Positions 1 through 8,473 of a stretch of DNA of 64,000 nt are shown here, piece by piece. The position numbers and the translations under genes are program-made. The notes beneath the pieces were generated by a model. That model was not told the DNA's origin, made no database searches, and saw only the letters and a program-made list of their open reading frames with translations. Positions within the stretch are counted from its first letter, which is position 1, and every line of letters starts with the position of its first letter. Origin of the DNA: Meridianimarinicoccus sp. MJW13 (GTDB lineage: Bacteria; Pseudomonadota; Alphaproteobacteria; Rhodobacterales; Rhodobacteraceae); the NCBI RefSeq assembly GCF_014901205.1, contig NZ_JACNMU010000003.1:310001-374000 (forward strand). Reading direction: 5' to 3'.

Positions 1-3000
1 GATGCAGCGACGGCGTCGAACAAGGCGGAAGCGATCGGCATGAAGGCCGGCATCCCGAGGCGGGCAGGCCATTCCGCGGCACGGTCGAAGAGGTTGACCA
101 TGAGACTGTGGCCCGACTTGCCCCAGGTCGGTGCGAGGCGGCCTCCAATCACCGGGATGGCGGTGACGTTCATATATTCGTGGGCGGCGGCGCGGGCAGC
201 GTTAGCCGCGACGTCGAAAACCTCAAGCTCTTCGAGACTGTCGATCGGGATCAGCACGGCCATCTCGCTCGGCGGCCAGGGAACGATCGCGTCCGTTGCC
301 TCGAGCGCTCGGACCTGCGCCGTGATACCTTGGTCGGCGAGAGCATCCCTCAGCTCGTTCGCGAAACGAGTGCGACCGGCGCCCATTGCAGCAGCGAAGC
401 GGGTGCCGATGAGGCGCAACGCGTTGTTCGGCCGCGCCTGACCAATCAAGGCGCGGTGCTTCAACGAAGGAGGGTAGGTCCCGCCAGCTACATCGCCGGC
501 AATATTCCTGATCGCCACGAGCATCTCCCGCAACCTACCGAGCGACGCTGGGGGGCCACCGATCAGATGCCAGGGCTCGTTCGCATAGGCGTTGTCGACG
601 TTGTCTATCAACGAGGCCATCCAGCCAATGAAGGCCGGTGCTCCGTTCGGCAGTTGATGGAAGCGGCGAATTACGTCGGTGCTCGCCGAGAAAAGAACGT
701 TCTGAAGCGGCGTGACGTGAACCCCCTGCGTGTCCTTTTCTGCACCGACGGCTACCACGTTCGGCGGAGTGAGTTCGCGCGCGGCATCGTGAACGGCATT
801 CGCGGAGGTGAGCTGGGCGTTTACCACGCTCTTGCCGATCAGGATCGTGTTGATGATGCGCTGTAGTGCCGGGACAAGTCGGTCGAGTAGCTGTGAGGCA
901 GCCGCGAGATAAGCCGTCTGGCTCGTCGTCGCGATGCGTGCTCCGATGGTCTCGCCCCAGAGACGGTTCCACGCCGGCAGCGCTGCCGGAGGTAGGTTGG
1001 CGCGGGGTATCCGTTTCTCGGCAAGGTTATGGCCTGCGAAACTTGCGAGCTCTCCGTTAGGAAGAATCGCCGACGAGGCGGCAACGTCGGATCGAGGGGA
1101 CAGGGCAAGCGCCGCTTCGCAGAGCCGCACGACCTCGTCGTGGGCGTTGTCGGCGCCGGGGATGCCGAGGTGGTAGTGGTCGACTCGTATCAAGCTTCCT
1201 TCCGGTGCATCCTCCAACAAGGGCTGGACCGCCCAAGGGATCTCAGAGGGTATGCGGGCGATCAACGCTTCTGCGCCGGCGGCGTCGACCCAGGCGACTG
1301 CCCGTTCGCGATCGATGGCCGCCAGCGAGCCTAGCAATCGCACTACCGGATCGAACGGTGCCCCGAGAAGGTCCGCAGGCCTGGATGTCAGCGCGTCAGC
1401 GAGTTTGGGGTGGAGAGGCAAGCCCATCAGAGCCGACAGCAACTGATCCAGTCCTACGACATCGGCCACGGGCGTGATCACGGCGGCCAAGGTGCTTTGG
1501 GGCAGCGCTTCAAGCAAAGCCGTGCGCGGATCGTTGACATACTCCTCGCGTAGCTCGGCGAGCCGAGCTCCAGCCTCCGTCGCGCGCGCTAGATTCTCGT
1601 TAATGCCGGAGAGCGAGGTGCCAGCGAAGCTCAGCATCATCGCGGTACCGATCTGCGTTGCCGGAAGCGCCCGAACCTCGGGAGTCTCGAGCCACAGGTC
1701 GACCGCTGTCGCGATCCGAACGGTTCCGAACCCGCGCAAGGCGGCCGAAAGGGTAGCAATGCTAGGGCTCTGCCGAATGTACTCGGCAACAATCCCCACA
1801 GCGTCTGCCGTCGATACGCCCCGGTGGCGCACGGAGTCAGCGATCAGTTGCTCGACGTTCGCAGCGGGCACCGAGCGCACCGCCTGTGCAAAGGTGTCAC
1901 TAATGAAGGGTGGTACATTACGGTGCGTAAGACGGACGAGTTCGGCGGAGCGAAGCTGGTGTAGGCCTGTGAGGAGGCTGTCCCCACCGTCGCGCACAAG
2001 ATGTTCCTCAACCAGGCGCCGCAGTCCACGCGCGATGCTGTCCGCCGAGAACTCCAAAACCTGCGGAAGTTGCCGCAGGTCGACGGCCGCGCCGGCGGCG
2101 GCGGCAAGTGATACAATCCGCAACGTCGCAAGCTCGGTTGTGCGCTCCTGGTCACGCAGCCGAGCGTCAACCTGCTCGCTCAGCGTTTGCTCGAAGCGTT
2201 CCCCGGCGCTCAGGATGTGTGTGTATTCGAGGACGAGGCCATTGCTCAGCGCCCAGGGCTCGCGCCACCCGCCCCACTGGGTCTTCCCACTCCGATTGAG
2301 CTCGTCGAAGATGCGCTTCGCTAGGTCGTTGTCTGGCTCGGCCCGGATCTCTGCTGCACGCGAGCGACCTTCGAGTAGGAAGAGGTCCTCCTCGCGGATT
2401 GAGCCGAGCAACAAGGCGCCCGGGATCGTGTTGAGTTCGCGGGTGAGCGCATCCCATCCCTCGGCGCCGCGCCGGCCGATGTCGTCCACGACAAACCCAA
2501 CTGGCGCGTCGGCACTGGCGCGCAGCGCTCGGAGCAGCCGACGCAAGTTAGGTAGATCGCGCTGCTCGATGCGAAGTAGCCGATACCATCGCACCGTGTG
2601 CCGAAGACCATGGGCGGTCTGCCACATGATGGCTGACTTGCCAGCACCCGACGGTCCGACTACGAGCGCGGCGCGGCGGAGCTCAAGCCCATGTGCCAGT
2701 CCCGCCTCGGGTTCGGCTCGCGGGACGACGAGTCCTGCGGCCACGTGGCCGGCCTGGACATCAACGCCGAGGTAGAACTCCGGGTCGTCGAGAGGCGTCA
2801 GGAAGTCGACGGGCTCGCAAGCGCCATCCAATATCGCCTGCTCGATCGCATCGATGTCGACCGCCTCGAGCGTGGTGGTGATGACAGAATCCGTGTCGCT
2901 CGCGGAAAGCCCCCGATAGTCCGCTGACTGCAGACGGCCGTTCTGGTTGGATAGGTTCCCGATCTCGACGAGCAACTGCGCGAAGCAGATTTGTGCAGTC

Positions 3001-3497
3001 AGCGGGCTGCAGCCCGTCTTCGCGACGATCGTTGCTATAGCCACCTCGTGCGGTTCCGGGACGTGCTGGATGATCGTCTTGGCGAGCAGGGCTTTGCCAA
3101 GCGCGCCACCAGGAAGCCTAGACCTGAGGCGGGCGTTCGGGGCAATCGTGTTGTCGGCCTGGGGCGGATGGTCGACGATCGGTCTCTCAAGGATCAGTTC
3201 GAGCGTTCCGGGAGCCGGCGTGAACTTGTCATGGCGGGTCCACAGGTCCTTCACATAGTCGCGGGCAGTGGCGAGGGGTGTCTCGCCCATGTGCTCGCGT
3301 CGGCTTTTCACCTGGACCAGCCATGTACGATTGGATCCTCTCCGCTCGATGTCGTCGTTGCCCTCGGGGATAATCGTCGCCGGCGCATCGATCCCCGCCC
3401 AGACACGCACAGCCAGCAAGGCGGCAACCGCGTCTTGGAAGCGGAAGCCGCGCCCGGCGTTGGAGCCATGTCGGTCGTGTGAGGCGGGGCCTGTCAT
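1..3497 (-). CDS. Cap4/DUF4297-like nuclease fused to a P-loop NTPase (3' end beyond window)
   Basis: Read on the minus strand from ATG at 3497, this frame stays open for 1165 codons to base 1, so its C-terminus lies outside the window. I checked every in-frame triplet and found no stop; an in-frame TAG at 3522-3524 closes it upstream, and a GTG at 3518 is an alternative start. Residues 15-64 match the Cap4/DUF4297 dsDNA endonuclease pattern: GRGFRFQDAVAA (15-26), E45, GNDDI (46-50) and VQVK (61-64), a PD-(D/E)xK core. A P-loop follows, with Walker A GPSGAGKS (281-288) and Walker B VVDDI (336-340). The remaining roughly 800 residues are unassigned. The nuclease-then-NTPase layout resembles Avs/STAND-type antiphage effectors, and the neighbours are restriction genes, so I infer a defence role. 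By my count twelve leucines use CTA, a codon rare elsewhere in the window, which suggests transfer. Subfamily is uncertain without the missing C-terminus. Confidence 0.85.
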   Translation of the reverse strand, partial: MTGPASHDRHGSNAGRGFRFQDAVAALLAVRVWAGIDAPATIIPEGNDDIERRGSNRTWLVQVKSRREHMGETPLATARDYVKDLWTRHDKFTPAPGTLELILERPIVDHPPQADNTIAPNARLRSRLPGGALGKALLAKTIIQHVPEPHEVAIATIVAKTGCSPLTAQICFAQLLVEIGNLSNQNGRLQSADYRGLSASDTDSVITTTLEAVDIDAIEQAILDGACEPVDFLTPLDDPEFYLGVDVQAGHVAAGLVVPRAEPEAGLAHGLELRRAALVVGPSGAGKSAIMWQTAHGLRHTVRWYRLLRIEQRDLPNLRRLLRALRASADAPVGFVVDDIGRRGAEGWDALTRELNTIPGALLLGSIREEDLFLLEGRSRAAEIRAEPDNDLAKRIFDELNRSGKTQWGGWREPWALSNGLVLEYTHILSAGERFEQTLSEQVDARLRDQERTTELATLRIVSLAAAAGAAVDLRQLPQVLEFSADSIARGLRRLVEEHLVRDGGDSLLTGLHQLRSAELVRLTHRNVPPFISDTFAQAVRSVPAANVEQLIADSVRHRGVSTADAVGIVAEYIRQSPSIATLSAALRGFGTVRIATAVDLWLETPEVRALPATQIGTAMMLSFAGTSLSGINENLARATEAGARLAELREEYVNDPRTALLEALPQSTLAAVITPVADVVGLDQLLSALMGLPLHPKLADALTSRPADLLGAPFDPVVRLLGSLAAIDRERAVAWVDAAGAEALIARIPSEIPWAVQPLLEDAPEGSLIRVDHYHLGIPGADNAHDEVVRLCEAALALSPRSDVAASSAILPNGELASFAGHNLAEKRIPRANLPPAALPAWNRLWGETIGARIATTSQTAYLAAASQLLDRLVPALQRIINTILIGKSVVNAQLTSANAVHDAARELTPPNVVAVGAEKDTQGVHVTPLQNVLFSASTDVIRRFHQLPNGAPAFIGWMASLIDNVDNAYANEPWHLIGGPPASLGRLREMLVAIRNIAGDVAGGTYPPSLKHRALIGQARPNNALRLIGTRFAAAMGAGRTRFANELRDALADQGITAQVRALEATDAIVPWPPSEMAVLIPIDSLEELEVFDVAANAARAAAHEYMNVTAIPVIGGRLAPTWGKSGHSLMVNLFDRAAEWPARLGMPAFMPIASALFDAVAA

Positions 3498-3625
3498 GTC
3501 ATTAAGAATAGGTCCCACTCGCTAGGGTTGCGAGTGGCTAGGTCCCTTCCGTGGTGATTATCGAGCTCGAATAGCGGTGACTTGATAGGGTTACAGCATT
3601 TCCGGATTAACCGCTTAGCACGCAT
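3494..3625 (-). CDS. Possible 43-residue ORF coupled to the nuclease-NTPase
   Basis: A small frame starts with ATG at 3625, after the res stop codon, and ends with a TGA at 3494-3496 that overlaps the ATG of the nuclease-NTPase gene in the arrangement ATGA. The product is basic at its N-terminus (MRAKRLIRK) and I recognise no domain. A GAAGG about ten bases upstream could serve as a weak ribosome site. Its value may lie in translational coupling of the large downstream gene rather than in its product. It could equally be chance: it is only 43 codons long in GC-rich DNA. Confidence 0.3.
   Translation of the reverse strand: MRAKRLIRKCCNPIKSPLFELDNHHGRDLATRNPSEWDLFLMT
3515..3537. other. Perfect 8-bp hairpin flanked by 8-bp direct repeats
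   Basis: CCACTCGC (3515-3522) and GCGAGTGG (3530-3537) form a perfect stem with a 7-base loop. The hairpin lies between two copies of TAGGTCCC (3509-3516 and 3539-3546). It sits just upstream of the nuclease-NTPase start, inside the small coupled ORF. No T-run follows on the minus strand, so it does not look like an intrinsic terminator. An operator, an attenuator or an RNA structure controlling translation of the big gene are all possible. Confidence 0.5.
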
Positions 3626-3653
3626 GAGTTGTCTACCTTCGCGATTACGTCCT

Positions 3654-6290
3654 TTAGATGTGGGCGCTGAGTTTCCCGATGATCTGATCACGCATGCCCA
3701 GTCCATCGACGGTTCTCTCGACCACAATGAACAGGCCCCTCTCACTGCTCGTCCTCTCCCATAGCTGACCGATGGTCCGCTTTTCGGCGGTGTCGGGGCC
3801 ATCGGCGATGTGGGCGCCCTTGTACTCCACGACGAGCAGTCGGCCGTCCTCCAACTGAGCCACGAAATCCGGATAGAACTTGTCCGTGGCCGTCGGCAAC
3901 CAGAACGAGTTGGGGTGGCGGGCCACGTTGCGGATCCAGAACTTGAGGCCCGGCAAGCTGTCGATGGCTTGCGCGCATTGGAATTCTTCACCGTTCTCGG
4001 CCCCGTCGAAAGCAGGTACATGGTCCGGCCCAAGGAAATGCTTACGAGGTTTCCAGCGCCCACGATACCGGCGCTGATCCCAGTACATCCCGTCCTTGAA
4101 CGCGAAGGCTTGGTCGAAGGACACGTCGACCTTGGCCTCCGGGGCGAAAAGATACCGCTGGTAGACGCCATCGCGTTCCTGCTGACGGATGGCGGCGAGC
4201 TTCTCGCGAACCTTGCGGGCGAGGATGAACTTGCACCGCATCAGCGCCGCGATGTGCATGCCGCGTACGGTGATCAGGTGGCCGACAAGGTCGCGCAGCC
4301 AGCGGAGCAATTCGCTCTGATGGATGTCCGGCTGGCGCACTTGGCGGTCGAGCCAGAACACCAGCGCCTCCGGTGTCCAGCCTTCAACATCGACGTCGAG
4401 TGCCAGTTGCTCCTCTTCGTCCGCGAACTGGTAGGTTATGCGGTTGCCGTCGAGGTCGATTTCGAAGCTGCGTGCCGTCTCGCGGATCGCGAACTCGCCT
4501 TCACCCAGTTTCGACGAGTGGTCGAGCAGCGACCAGTCGTGAAACTCCATGAACACGTCAGTGTCGGCGAACTCGAACTCGCCCTGGATCTCGGAGACCA
4601 GGCGGGGGACCTCGAACGCCTCGCCCTGTTCTGCAGGCGATAGCTGGTCCTTCACTTCGACGCGATACTTGGTGACGGCCGCCGAGAACCCCGTTCGTTC
4701 GGTCTCGGGGAGAGCCTCGACGATCGCCTTTTCGAGGCCGCCGTCAACACGCCCCGTCACGGCGATCTCGACCTTCCCATCGTCGGTTTCGCGAACGCTC
4801 ACCCCTTCGCGCTTCTTCAGTTCGGCAACCACCTCAGGTGTCGCCGTCACCGTGTGCTTGAAGGTCGGCTTCGGCTTGTCGCGCGGGCCGAAGAGGCCGG
4901 TATCTGCATCGAGCGAGGTCTGCGCAGGTTCGATGTTGTCGAGCGCCTCATCCTCCTCGAAGCCCATGGCCACCAGCTTGTCGGCCAGCGACCGCGCCGC
5001 CTCGCCGAACGACGGCTCCGACAGGAACGCATAGGCGCGGTTCAAATCCTCGGCCTTGCGGCGCTTGGCATAAGGCATCCGCAGGACTCGCCCCAGCAAC
5101 TGCTCGACGTCCACCGCGCTCTGGATCCGCGAGACCGAGCAGAAAGCATAGGCGAAGGAACAATCCCAGCCCTCCTTTAGCGCCTCGACTGTGATGACGT
5201 ACTCGATCGGGCATTTCGGATCGAACAGGTTGATGCCGTCCAGTTCGCGCTGATCGCCGGTGGCCACGGCGATCTTGTGTTCGGGGATCTGCTCGACCTC
5301 CATCAGGTGCTTCTTCAGCACCTCGACCGTCACCTCCTGGTTCTTGGGCTGCGCCTGGAACAGGACGATGGGTCGGATGTACGCCGTGTCCTTCTCTGCT
5401 TCCTCGGCCAGCGACGCCCGTGACGAGACGGCCCCATTCACGGCGTTCTGCCAGGTGTCGTGCTCGGACAGCATGATCGGCAGCTTGATCATCTCCTCGA
5501 GCTTCAGCTCCTGTGCCGTCACGCTGTGCAGGATGTTCGAGTTGAGCCGCGGCGTCGCCGTGAACTCGATGATCGCCGATGGATTGACCCGTGCCTGCAT
5601 TTCGCGCGTCAGGCCGGTAACCGCGTTGTGCGCCTCGTCCACGATCATCAGCGGCCGGTGGATATGCATCAGATTGGCGAAAGAGAACTTCACGCCGCCG
5701 CCTTCCAGCGTTTCCAGCCCCGGCAGGCTCTTGGGCAGCGCCGAAAAGTGCGGTTCCATGTTCTCGTTGTGGGAATAGACCTTCCGGCCCTCGGTGTTCG
5801 ACACGCGCAGGGTCTGGATCGTGCCCACGACGATGCAGCAATGGTCGCGGATGTCGTGCGGGCGGATGTGGGTGAAATCGGCGATGTCGAACACGCGCAC
5901 CCGGCCGTCGAAGGCCTCGTCCAGCGCTTGCCGATAGGGATGGCGGGCGTTCTTCAGCGCCTCAGCCGTCTGAAGCCGGATCGTGTTCGACGGAACCAGC
6001 CACAGGACCATCGGATAGTCCTTCTCCACCCAGGCGTCGCGCGCGACGCCGATGGAGTGGGCCCCGAGGATCGTCTTGCCGCCCCCGGTGGGCAGGCGCA
6101 GGCAGACATAGGGAACGGCCGGCAACTCCGCGAGCGGCGTGTAGCTGCCGCCGTACCGGCCGAGCCGCTTGGTCTGGTCCGGCTCCTTGGTGATCGCCTC
6201 GTACGCGCCCTTCGGGCCCGCCACGCGCGCCTCTTCGAAGAACCGGCGGAGAACGGAGAGAGTATCGGTCTGGTATTGCTTCAGTTTCAT
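3654..6290 (-). CDS. res: Type III restriction enzyme, res subunit (DEAH helicase-nuclease)
   Basis: This 878-residue protein is the translocating and cleaving subunit of a type III restriction-modification system; with Mod it cuts DNA carrying unmodified sites after ATP-dependent movement. Superfamily 2 helicase motifs are clear: Walker A PTGGGKT (67-73), DEAH (218-221), the FTATP motif III and the QLLGRVLRMP motif VI. The C-terminus carries an endonuclease core, PD at 807-808 and EYK at 822-824, a PD-(D/E)xK pattern in the usual place for Res. It is a little shorter than classical Res proteins. It follows mod by 11 bp on the same strand, so the two are almost certainly co-transcribed. All key motifs are intact, which argues for an active enzyme. 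Confidence 0.93.
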   Translation of the reverse strand: MKLKQYQTDTLSVLRRFFEEARVAGPKGAYEAITKEPDQTKRLGRYGGSYTPLAELPAVPYVCLRLPTGGGKTILGAHSIGVARDAWVEKDYPMVLWLVPSNTIRLQTAEALKNARHPYRQALDEAFDGRVRVFDIADFTHIRPHDIRDHCCIVVGTIQTLRVSNTEGRKVYSHNENMEPHFSALPKSLPGLETLEGGGVKFSFANLMHIHRPLMIVDEAHNAVTGLTREMQARVNPSAIIEFTATPRLNSNILHSVTAQELKLEEMIKLPIMLSEHDTWQNAVNGAVSSRASLAEEAEKDTAYIRPIVLFQAQPKNQEVTVEVLKKHLMEVEQIPEHKIAVATGDQRELDGINLFDPKCPIEYVITVEALKEGWDCSFAYAFCSVSRIQSAVDVEQLLGRVLRMPYAKRRKAEDLNRAYAFLSEPSFGEAARSLADKLVAMGFEEDEALDNIEPAQTSLDADTGLFGPRDKPKPTFKHTVTATPEVVAELKKREGVSVRETDDGKVEIAVTGRVDGGLEKAIVEALPETERTGFSAAVTKYRVEVKDQLSPAEQGEAFEVPRLVSEIQGEFEFADTDVFMEFHDWSLLDHSSKLGEGEFAIRETARSFEIDLDGNRITYQFADEEEQLALDVDVEGWTPEALVFWLDRQVRQPDIHQSELLRWLRDLVGHLITVRGMHIAALMRCKFILARKVREKLAAIRQQERDGVYQRYLFAPEAKVDVSFDQAFAFKDGMYWDQRRYRGRWKPRKHFLGPDHVPAFDGAENGEEFQCAQAIDSLPGLKFWIRNVARHPNSFWLPTATDKFYPDFVAQLEDGRLLVVEYKGAHIADGPDTAEKRTIGQLWERTSSERGLFIVVERTVDGLGMRDQIIGKLSAHI

Positions 6291-6301
6291 CCGATACCCC
6301 C

Positions 6302-7843
6302 TCAGGCCCGCGCTTTGACGTCGTAGGGCGTCTGCTTGAAGGTGATGCGCTCACGGTCGAGCGTCGCGGGCGTCAGCCGGGATTGTTCTCCATAGACGGT
6401 CAGCGGGCCGTCGAAGTCCGGCGCCAGCTTGGCGATATCCTCACAGATCAGGGCGAGGGTCGAGCGGGTCAGCACGTTGCCGCCGCCAGGCCTCTTGTCG
6501 CCAAGGATGCCGTTGTAGAGCAGCGCGTGCGCGCGGCCGTCATGGATGCCGAGCAGCGGGTTCTCGCCACTGCCGTCCCACGGACGGTCGGTTTCCGAGA
6601 ACCAGATATGCGCTGCCAGCACGGGGAAGCGGATGTCCTGCCGGATGTGACCTTCCTGGTCGAAGACGGGAGGGCCGAGCCGGTAGAAGCGGAAACCGCC
6701 GCCGCCCTTCCAACCCGCGCTCTCCGAAATGCCGCCTTGTTCACCGTCGATGACCTTCTGCAGGCGCGGCGCGCAGTGTGTGTGGGCATGCTCGCCCATT
6801 TCGATGCCGATGTATCGGCGGCCCATCTTATGAGCGACGGCGGCGGTTGTGCCGGACCCGAGGAAGGAATCGAGCACAAGGTCGTTCGGATCGGTTGCAA
6901 TGTTAATGATGCGTTGAATTAAGCGCTCGGGTTTCGGAGTCATGAAATTTACTTCACCGAACAGAGCTACGACTTCCTTCTTGGCCTCTTGGGTGTTTCC
7001 AACCTCAGTGTTCATCCACAAAGTCTGGGGTACGACTCCCTGCTTCACCTCTGCAAGGAAGCGCTTTATGCGCGGAGTGTTGTTGCCGTCCTTGCCCCAC
7101 CAGATCCTGCCGTCGCGGTCCATCTCCCAGAACCGCTCCTCCGACACGCGCCAATACATGCCATTCGGAGGACCTGCGATCACCCGGCCGCTGGGACAGG
7201 TAATCGCATATCTTCCGGCACCGTAGAAATTTCGCGCGGAAACGTCGCCGGAAGTCCAAGGGCCGCGTGGATCATTGTCCGGGTTCTTGTAGCCTTTGTT
7301 CATGCGGTCGGAACGCGGCATGGGGTTTGGCACCCACTTATCGGCATTCCTGGCAAAAACGAGGATATGGTCGTGATCATCTGAAAAATGGCGCGCAGTG
7401 TTCTTCGGCGAAAAGACCTTCTGCCAGAGAGTGTTGGCGATAAAATTTCGTCGCCCGAACACCTCATCCATGATGACCTTTAGGTAGTGCCCCTCGTTGT
7501 CGTCGATGGACACCCAGATCGAGCCATCCTCGGCCAGAAGATCGCGGAGCAGTTCCAGCCGGGGCCACATCATGGCCAGCCATTGCGTGTGCTCGAGGTT
7601 GTCGTCGTAGTGCTCGAAGGCGGAGCGCGTGTTGTAGGGCGGGTCGATGTAGATGCATTTCACCCGACCGGCATAGAAGGGCAGCAGGGCCTTCAGCGCT
7701 TCCAGGTTGTCGCCCTGGATCAGCATGTTGCCCGCGCCACCGTCGCCCGCCGACTGATCCGGGACTTCCTCCAGCAAGCGATAGGGCACATGCTGCGCCG
7801 TGCGGATGTCCTCGTCCCGTGTCAGCCAGTTCAGTATCGGCAT
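6302..7843 (-). CDS. mod: Type III DNA-methyltransferase, mod subunit
   Basis: This 513-residue protein is the site-specific DNA adenine methyltransferase and specificity subunit of the type III system. The amino-methyltransferase motif DPPYNT lies at 67-72 and the AdoMet-binding motif FLGSG at 327-331. Catalytic motif before AdoMet motif is the beta-class order typical of Mod proteins. The stretch between them (about 140-300) should contain the target-recognition region. It is shorter than many Mod proteins (around 600 residues) but no motif is missing. It starts 3 bp after the Phd-like gene and ends 11 bp before res, so phd-mod-res looks like one operon. Self-methylation would protect the host from Res. 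Confidence 0.93.
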   Translation of the reverse strand: MPILNWLTRDEDIRTAQHVPYRLLEEVPDQSAGDGGAGNMLIQGDNLEALKALLPFYAGRVKCIYIDPPYNTRSAFEHYDDNLEHTQWLAMMWPRLELLRDLLAEDGSIWVSIDDNEGHYLKVIMDEVFGRRNFIANTLWQKVFSPKNTARHFSDDHDHILVFARNADKWVPNPMPRSDRMNKGYKNPDNDPRGPWTSGDVSARNFYGAGRYAITCPSGRVIAGPPNGMYWRVSEERFWEMDRDGRIWWGKDGNNTPRIKRFLAEVKQGVVPQTLWMNTEVGNTQEAKKEVVALFGEVNFMTPKPERLIQRIINIATDPNDLVLDSFLGSGTTAAVAHKMGRRYIGIEMGEHAHTHCAPRLQKVIDGEQGGISESAGWKGGGGFRFYRLGPPVFDQEGHIRQDIRFPVLAAHIWFSETDRPWDGSGENPLLGIHDGRAHALLYNGILGDKRPGGGNVLTRSTLALICEDIAKLAPDFDGPLTVYGEQSRLTPATLDRERITFKQTPYDVKARA

Positions 7844-8071: not shown

Positions 8072-8335
8072 TGAAGGCGGCAGGTCAACGACCCGCGAGA
8101 GCGCCACGGTCAGATCGGGAGTTCGACGCCAGTGGCATGTCAACCAAATGGAACCGGGATCGGAGTCCGCGTGGACGCCGGAAAAAATAGGTTACAGAAC
8201 AGATGCTTGTAAGCTTTTCACCAGATTGGCGCAGTCAACAGGTCCGGAGAATATCGGCCCCGAGAGAACGCTTTGGGCCCTCTTCGCACCGGAGCTGGTG
8301 AACAGCCCCTCCCGCATAACCCTCCAAAACAACGG
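8072..8335. other. Non-coding gap between the defence island and tRNA-Ser
   Basis: I see no convincing gene here. Frames that cross this stretch also run over the tRNA and lack ribosome sites. It should contain the promoter of the phd-mod-res operon, but no clear -35/-10 pair stands out. No direct repeat of the tRNA 3' end and no integrase fragment were found in it. Confidence 0.4.
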
Positions 8336-8357
8336 AAAAATCCGGCCGCAGCCGGAT
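8336..8357 (-). terminator. Intrinsic terminator of tRNA-Ser
   Basis: On the minus strand ATCCGGC, a TGCG loop and GCCGGAT form a 7-bp GC-rich stem followed directly by a run of five T. It begins 26 bases after the encoded CCA of the tRNA, which is where its terminator should be. Confidence 0.8.
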
Positions 8358-8383
8358 CGGGAGAACGCTTTCGCGGGGGCAAG

Positions 8384-8473
8384 TGGCGGAGAGACAGGGA
8401 TTCGAACCCTGGAGACGGTTTCCCGCCTACACACTTTCCAGGCGTGCGCCTTCGACCACTCGGCCACCTCTCC
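8384..8473 (-). tRNA. tRNA-Ser (anticodon GGA)
   Basis: The minus strand begins GGAGAGGTGGCCGAGTGG and ends with CTCTCCGCCA, with the CCA encoded. The 7-bp acceptor stem (one G-U pair), the anticodon loop CTGGAAA giving anticodon GGA, the long variable arm typical of serine tRNAs and the GGTTCGAATCC T-arm are all present. It reads UCC/UCU serine codons. Its 3' end faces the defence island, a common orientation for island insertion, though no attachment repeat or integrase is visible here. Confidence 0.97.

Follow-up and report, generated by a model that had tools for sequence, protein, structure and literature searches.

Why does a long open frame that appears to join a nuclease to a P-loop nucleoside triphosphatase (NTPase) lie just downstream of a type III restriction system in Meridianimarinicoccus sp. 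MJW13, and do the two work together? The frame runs off the left edge of the 64,000-nucleotide stretch analyzed here (the window; positions 310,001 to 374,000 of contig NZ_JACNMU010000003.1, or C14:310001-374000). A previous sequence-only reading took it for an Avs/STAND-like antiphage effector that sits in a type III restriction operon and may work beside the restriction enzyme. Our results make it fairly likely that the gene encodes a putative Avs-like nuclease-STAND antiphage receptor that is part of the defence cargo of a prophage-like element, and the protein probably helps its host cell to resist other phages.

The gene and its nuclease and NTPase domains

The frame is on the minus strand and could start at GTG 3518 or ATG 3497. 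The ATG is the likely start because the relatives at loci L005 and L006 begin with identical first residues, MTGPASHDRHGS. From this ATG, 1165 codons lie within the window, in agreement with the minimum given by the sequence-only reading, and extension to the left along the same contig reaches a stop at C14:309685, for a protein of 1270 amino acids (Table 1). Further long open reading frames (ORFs) overlap the gene on both strands. The frame itself is not a chance one, because five relatives with 54 to 99% identity are collinear with the protein from end to end and because the ratio of nonsynonymous to synonymous substitution rates (dN/dS) is 0.195, 0.132, and 0.248 against L005, L006, and L007, respectively. 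These low values across the whole gene, which stay below 0.34 in every one of seven segments in all three comparisons, indicate that purifying selection acts on the entire protein. Relative to L007, residues 225-400 are the best conserved (77% identical) and residues 1031-1270 the least (36%).

The N-terminal domain is predicted to be a PD-(D/E)xK nuclease of the Cap4/DUF4297 type, and several lines of evidence support this assignment. The signature spans residues 11-68; E45, D49, and K64 are kept in 12/12 aligned sequences (own included), and position 62 is Q in 11 of them and D in the other. A profile built from the N-termini and searched against the PDB recovered Cap4-type defence nucleases only, including LmuA (2.8e-8) and HamA (2.4e-7), with a SAVED-domain protein at 0.015. 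The Pfam match to PF14130 over the same residues scores 17.5 bits, short of the gathering score of 26.2. For a poor model of residues 1-640, the best Foldseek match is Avs4, and Avs3 ranks fourth in VIA; a defence catalogue returns mainly nuclease-domain matches (LmuA, HamA) for family members.

The nuclease is followed by a STAND-type NTPase and then by a winged-helix-like region ending in GLHxxR, which we take to be a possible counterpart of the MHD motif of NLR proteins. Both Walker motifs are invariant across the aligned sequences. The central domain matches nSTAND_NTPase5 (PF25199) at 3.6e-6, with 27.3 bits against a gathering score of 34; the same model matches all 10 members scanned with Pfam and is the top match in 6, with none reaching 34 bits. 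A P-loop STAND-type NTPase is therefore supported as the predicted central domain, at a PF25199 score below the Pfam cut-off. The nuclease core (E45, D48-D49, Q62-V63-K64) and Walker A (GPSGAGKS, residues 281-288) that the sequence-only reading had picked out are thus both in place, and no structure search indicated that the N-terminal domain is anything other than a PD-(D/E)xK nuclease.

Table 1. Features of the nuclease-STAND locus, in window coordinates
Feature	Position	Strand	Remarks
Cap4-type nuclease/STAND NTPase gene	3..3497	-	5' 1165 of 1270 codons in window; remainder to the left, to C14:309685
C-terminal region, presumed sensor	3..1817	-	Starts at residue 561; helices predicted, plus an alpha/beta patch and a helical bundle at the terminus
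GLHxxRS motif	1947..1967	-	Residues 511-517, end of winged-helix-like region; G, L, H, and R invariant in 13/13
Walker B, GFVVDD	2481..2498	-	Residues 334-339; D338 invariant in 13/13 aligned
Walker A, GPSGAGKS	2634..2657	-	Residues 281-288
Predicted PD-(D/E)xK nuclease domain, Cap4/DUF4297 type	3078..3467	-	About residues 11-140; E45, D49, Q62, K64
Type III restriction subunit (Res)	3654..6290	-	Same cargo block
Type III methyltransferase subunit (Mod)	6302..7843	-	Same cargo block
Mobile element right end	8213..8391		Diverged copy at C14:254405-254583; the two copies share their last base, which falls in the 3' end of tRNA-Ser
tRNA-Ser (GGA), presumed integration site	8384..8473	-	

The C-terminal region and comparison with known systems

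The long region after the P-loop had been said to match nothing recognizable, and this was borne out for residues 561-1270, which found no match among solved sequences (best E value, 0.15). A model of residues 501-1270 has a mean predicted local distance difference test (pLDDT) score of 58 and consists largely of helices, apart from a small alpha/beta patch around 1061-1117; a Foldseek search with it returned nothing below 1e-3. A profile of nine Pseudomonadota C-termini recognized 4/4 Pseudomonadota members tried in leave-one-out runs (1.6e-32 to 4.5e-137) and, in Arthrobacter, a segment some 124 positions long (5.5e-10). It missed the Hymenobacter member (1.1, the same as shuffled sequences), and neither the Pseudanabaena member nor that of a viral contig was among its best 20 matches. 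The nuclease-NTPase core is found in four phyla (Pseudomonadota, Actinomycetota, Bacteroidota, and Cyanobacteriota); judged by sequence profiles, this type of C-terminus is demonstrably common to Pseudomonadota only. A constant effector and switch with a changing C-terminus fits a receptor, although simple divergence would look alike.

Among solved structures, the layout most resembles that of Avs proteins: Avs3 and Avs4 likewise have an N-terminal PD-(D/E)xK nuclease, a central STAND NTPase, and a long C-terminus, although their chains (2028 and 1534 residues, respectively) are longer than the 1270 residues found here. Passages of PMC10907252 describe antiviral STAND proteins as usually built from an effector, a STAND domain, and a C-terminal sensor that varies; in our protein, the effector and NTPase stand in the right order, and a sensor role for the C-terminus is assumed from its position. 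Membership in Avs proper is not supported at the sequence level, as no Avs chain occurs among the PDB sequence matches listed (in one search, the best 60 of 157) and no PADLOC Avs model matched the window-encoded part at E ≤ 1 or any of 13 members (own included) at E ≤ 0.1. The PADLOC library presumably holds Avs models. Of the proposal of an Avs/STAND-like antiphage effector, then, the layout, the STAND NTPase, and the defence contexts described below hold up, while assignment to Avs proper does not. Avs5 differs in having a Sir2 effector and nSTAND3, according to passages of PMC12931631.

The closest solved sequences are the nuclease domains of LmuA (Lamassu) and HamA (Hachiman), and LmuA shares the E...D...QxK arrangement. 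The nucleases of those systems work with separate SMC or helicase partners, whereas the NTPase here is fused and STAND-like. Next to the gene in the window, Res, Mod, and a serine integrase were recognized, with no Lamassu-type SMC protein (LmuB) among the neighbours identified. In HerA-DUF4297, as passages of PMC11291478 describe it, the ATPase is a separate hexameric HerA; no HerA is among the neighbours identified at the nuclease-STAND loci. The DUF4297-HerA nuclease is characterized, in the parts of the literature that bear on it, as promiscuous on double-stranded DNA (dsDNA) and dependent on dimerization, with infected cells losing both host and phage DNA. Among the matches listed in a literature search, no title or abstract describes a Cap4-nSTAND5 receptor or a link of one to type III restriction.

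The kinship with LmuA and HamA raises the alternative that the protein responds directly to foreign DNA (its ends, its topology, or plasmids) in the manner of Lamassu, with the helical C-terminal region binding DNA. Hachiman senses DNA. The same is stated for Lamassu in passages of PMC12904381, so that the closest relatives of our nuclease come from DNA-sensing systems. In VIA, the predicted C-terminal helices match HEAT-like proteins, including the HEAT subunits of cohesin and condensin but also importins, and none of this rises above the noise level given by the tool for helical models. Given in addition that the NTPase is STAND-like by Pfam rather than an SMC protein or a helicase, we regard direct DNA sensing as unlikely.

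Relatives, restriction neighbour, and mobile element

Close relatives were found at five loci from genome contigs. A full-length or near full-length copy is present in 3/385 alphaproteobacterial genomes, the window's own included: of 13 genomes that passed, three (G000, G383, and G222) have such a copy, and the other 10 matched over the nuclease only (5) or the P-loop part only (5). From a second set of six genomes, G000 and G678 were used, whereas G741 (split into pieces across both strands), G751 (located at the edges of contigs), and the partial G550 and G668 were not. At E ≤ 1e-5, a tblastn search found the protein in 11 plasmid records, 6 of them typed as conjugative; at the same threshold, 0/50,697 phage records hold it.

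The relatives were grouped into 15 independent contexts by merging the own locus with L005 and L009, L010 with L033, and four Agrobacterium records into one (L013 fetched). Neighbours were judged from deposited annotation only at L011, L012, L015, and L017, and L008 was counted with its neighbours unscanned. A recognized defence gene other than a toxin-antitoxin gene occurs in 8/15 contexts, a count made without control neighbourhoods; the figure becomes 7/15 without the PLD-type nuclease of L006, which is below the Pfam cut-off. The remaining seven of these eight carry type III restriction-modification genes (own/L005/L009), Abi_2 (L007), a NACHT-type protein (L010/L033), a SMEK-NACHT protein (L013), MmeI by annotation (L016), cas3, cas8c, and cas7 of a type I-C CRISPR system (L034), and Abi_2 with a 1288-amino-acid protein containing a reverse-transcriptase domain (L043). 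The NACHT domains of L010, L033, and L013 are below the cut-off, but NCAB2 (3e-29 and 4e-30 in L010/L033) and SMEK_N are far above it. Three contexts have only toxin-antitoxin type genes by annotation (AbiE in L011, HipA in L012, and RES in L014). The last four are L008, L015, L017, and L018, with no recognized defence gene in those scanned; at L018, a 1526-amino-acid AAA protein is encoded upstream of the relative. Relatives are thus not found mainly outside defence contexts, a pattern that would have told against a defence role.

Several of these loci deserve description in their own right. At L010:9046-17227 (Marinovum algicola) and L033:2576-10922 (an alphaproteobacterium), the relative is followed, in an overlapping frame (by 14 bp in L010), by the gene for the NCAB2 protein of 1458-1470 amino acids, apparently placing two STAND receptors in one operon in a manner reminiscent of paired NLRs. 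At L034:1655-12005, the relative comes directly after cas3, cas8c (Csd1), and cas7 and has a third-position GC content of 0.38, versus 0.85-0.89 in the cas genes, as if inserted. At L043:1227-6097, the Abi_2 and reverse-transcriptase genes adjoin the relative in overlapping frames and are possibly a defence reverse transcriptase pair. A 91-amino-acid ORF is conserved after the gene at L007:13939-14214 and L008:13942-14217, with no Pfam match (L007 tested). The L008 contig is labelled Bacillus sp. 2B10, yet its copy aligns closely with that of Sphingobium ummariense, and the organism label may be wrong. On a Sphingopyxis plasmid (L012:9001-13325), a 62%-identical copy stops after residue 629 beside an IS21 element; this truncated copy was excluded from the alignments.

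The adjacency to Res and Mod at our locus bears on whether the protein is a back-up to the type III enzyme that senses a phage block of restriction and kills the cell. PrrC plays such a role beside a type I enzyme. The arrangement invites the comparison: the gaps are 11 bp between Mod and Res and 156 bp between Res and the start of the nuclease-STAND gene, all on the same strand, and a scan of 3300-3800 revealed neither a promoter-like nor a terminator-like site. The gene set is conserved in Sagittula salina and on a Paracoccus contig, but these and our own are the only three loci with it, and all belong to one element lineage. No such Res or Mod was found in the approximately 10 kb fetched on either side of L006 (77% identity), L007, and L008, and the 54 plasmid records with a related Res (E ≤ 1e-50) share none with the 11 that have the nuclease-STAND protein. 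Furthermore, DNA identity to the Paracoccus copy is 83.3% up to 3539 (nuclease-STAND gene and integrase) and 94.5% from 3659 (Res), and because of this step, the two modules have probably been exchanged separately. A partnership is therefore not supported, and neither is the suggestion that the protein works beside the restriction enzyme, which on this evidence is a neighbour; we hold a back-up role to be quite improbable.

Within the restriction module, protein identity to the Paracoccus copy is 96% for Res and only 70% for Mod, and the middle of mod (6884-7536) fails to align in DNA, because of which the target specificity of mod may have been replaced via recombination within the gene.

The nuclease-STAND gene and Res/Mod together are cargo of a prophage-like element, flanked by a large serine integrase on one side and by the element's tRNA-Ser end on the other. 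The integrase lies left of the window (L002:11682-13163, window -2318 to -838; phrog_95, 2.9e-113), and farther left are phage genes for terminase (4.4e-264), portal (1.3e-104), tape measure (1.2e-217), tail, and endolysin proteins; helicase, AAA_24, and PD-(D/E)xK genes on that side were read as phage replication genes. The element block ends at 8391, within the tRNA-Ser 3' end, and the Paracoccus copy stops aligning at the same base. The type III operon placement proposed earlier is thus right as to adjacency, but that reading had no view of the pair as cargo at one end of a prophage-like element.

A second element on the same contig (C14:243539-254583; L047:2258-12594) accounts for the diverged copy of the final 180 bp. 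Its integrase region is 80-83% DNA-identical to that of the first, and its slot is occupied by a type I restriction system (HsdR with EcoEI_R_C, HsdS, and HsdM). In this element, a DUF932 protein sits between HsdS and HsdM. In G005, a genome of the same genus, the slot has a related integrase (83-84%) on one side and the same tRNA-Ser end on the other, and in it lie a type II methyltransferase (3.2e-166) and a HATPase protein that matches a type II restriction model (7.3e-14). Because type III, type I, and type II-like systems fill it in three elements, the integrase-to-tRNA-Ser slot is an exchangeable site for restriction and defence cargo. Defence hotspots are carried by Escherichia coli P2-like phages and P4-like satellites, according to PMC9122126, and the likeness is that related prophage-like elements carry differing defence genes at one fixed position; the difference is that ours combine a large serine integrase with an end at tRNA-Ser, with Sagittula salina as the genome of the nearest named copy. 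That the protein instead serves the element, by stabilizing the prophage or controlling the lysis decision, would fit a gene beside phage genes and between integrase and element end but is the least credible alternative of all, given relatives on plasmids and beside CRISPR or reverse-transcriptase genes, none in the phage records, and restriction systems filling the same slot elsewhere.

Proposed mode of action and significance

For the putative nuclease-STAND antiphage receptor, the effector and STAND parts are identified by direct evidence and the sensor part by position. At rest, the protein would be monomeric, with nucleotide bound where the P-loop domain meets the winged-helix-like region and with its nuclease kept apart from partners. 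The C-terminal region of about 700 residues would bind something produced upon infection; by analogy with Avs, this is most likely a phage protein. If STAND biology is a guide, nucleotide exchange and oligomerization would follow, upon which the nuclease domains, like those of Cap4 relatives, may pair and degrade dsDNA. The infected cell would then be killed or arrested, or the phage DNA cleared.

A bolder and rather doubtful extension is that these proteins form a new class of nuclease-armed STAND receptor, built on a Cap4-NTPase core that occurs in at least four phyla and, in Pseudomonadota, on a C-terminus that would sense a phage product outside the known Avs range. Because prophages would carry such a receptor as an exchangeable weapon, it would have to be blind to the carrier prophage's own matching product (e.g., terminase or portal).

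These results delineate a family of putative STAND receptors that are armed with a Cap4-type nuclease and have an extended C-terminal part. Since our copy adjoins prophage terminase and portal genes, it offers a way to ask how a phage-borne sensor spares its own carrier, and the integrase-to-tRNA-Ser slot is a place to seek more defence genes in this bacterial group.
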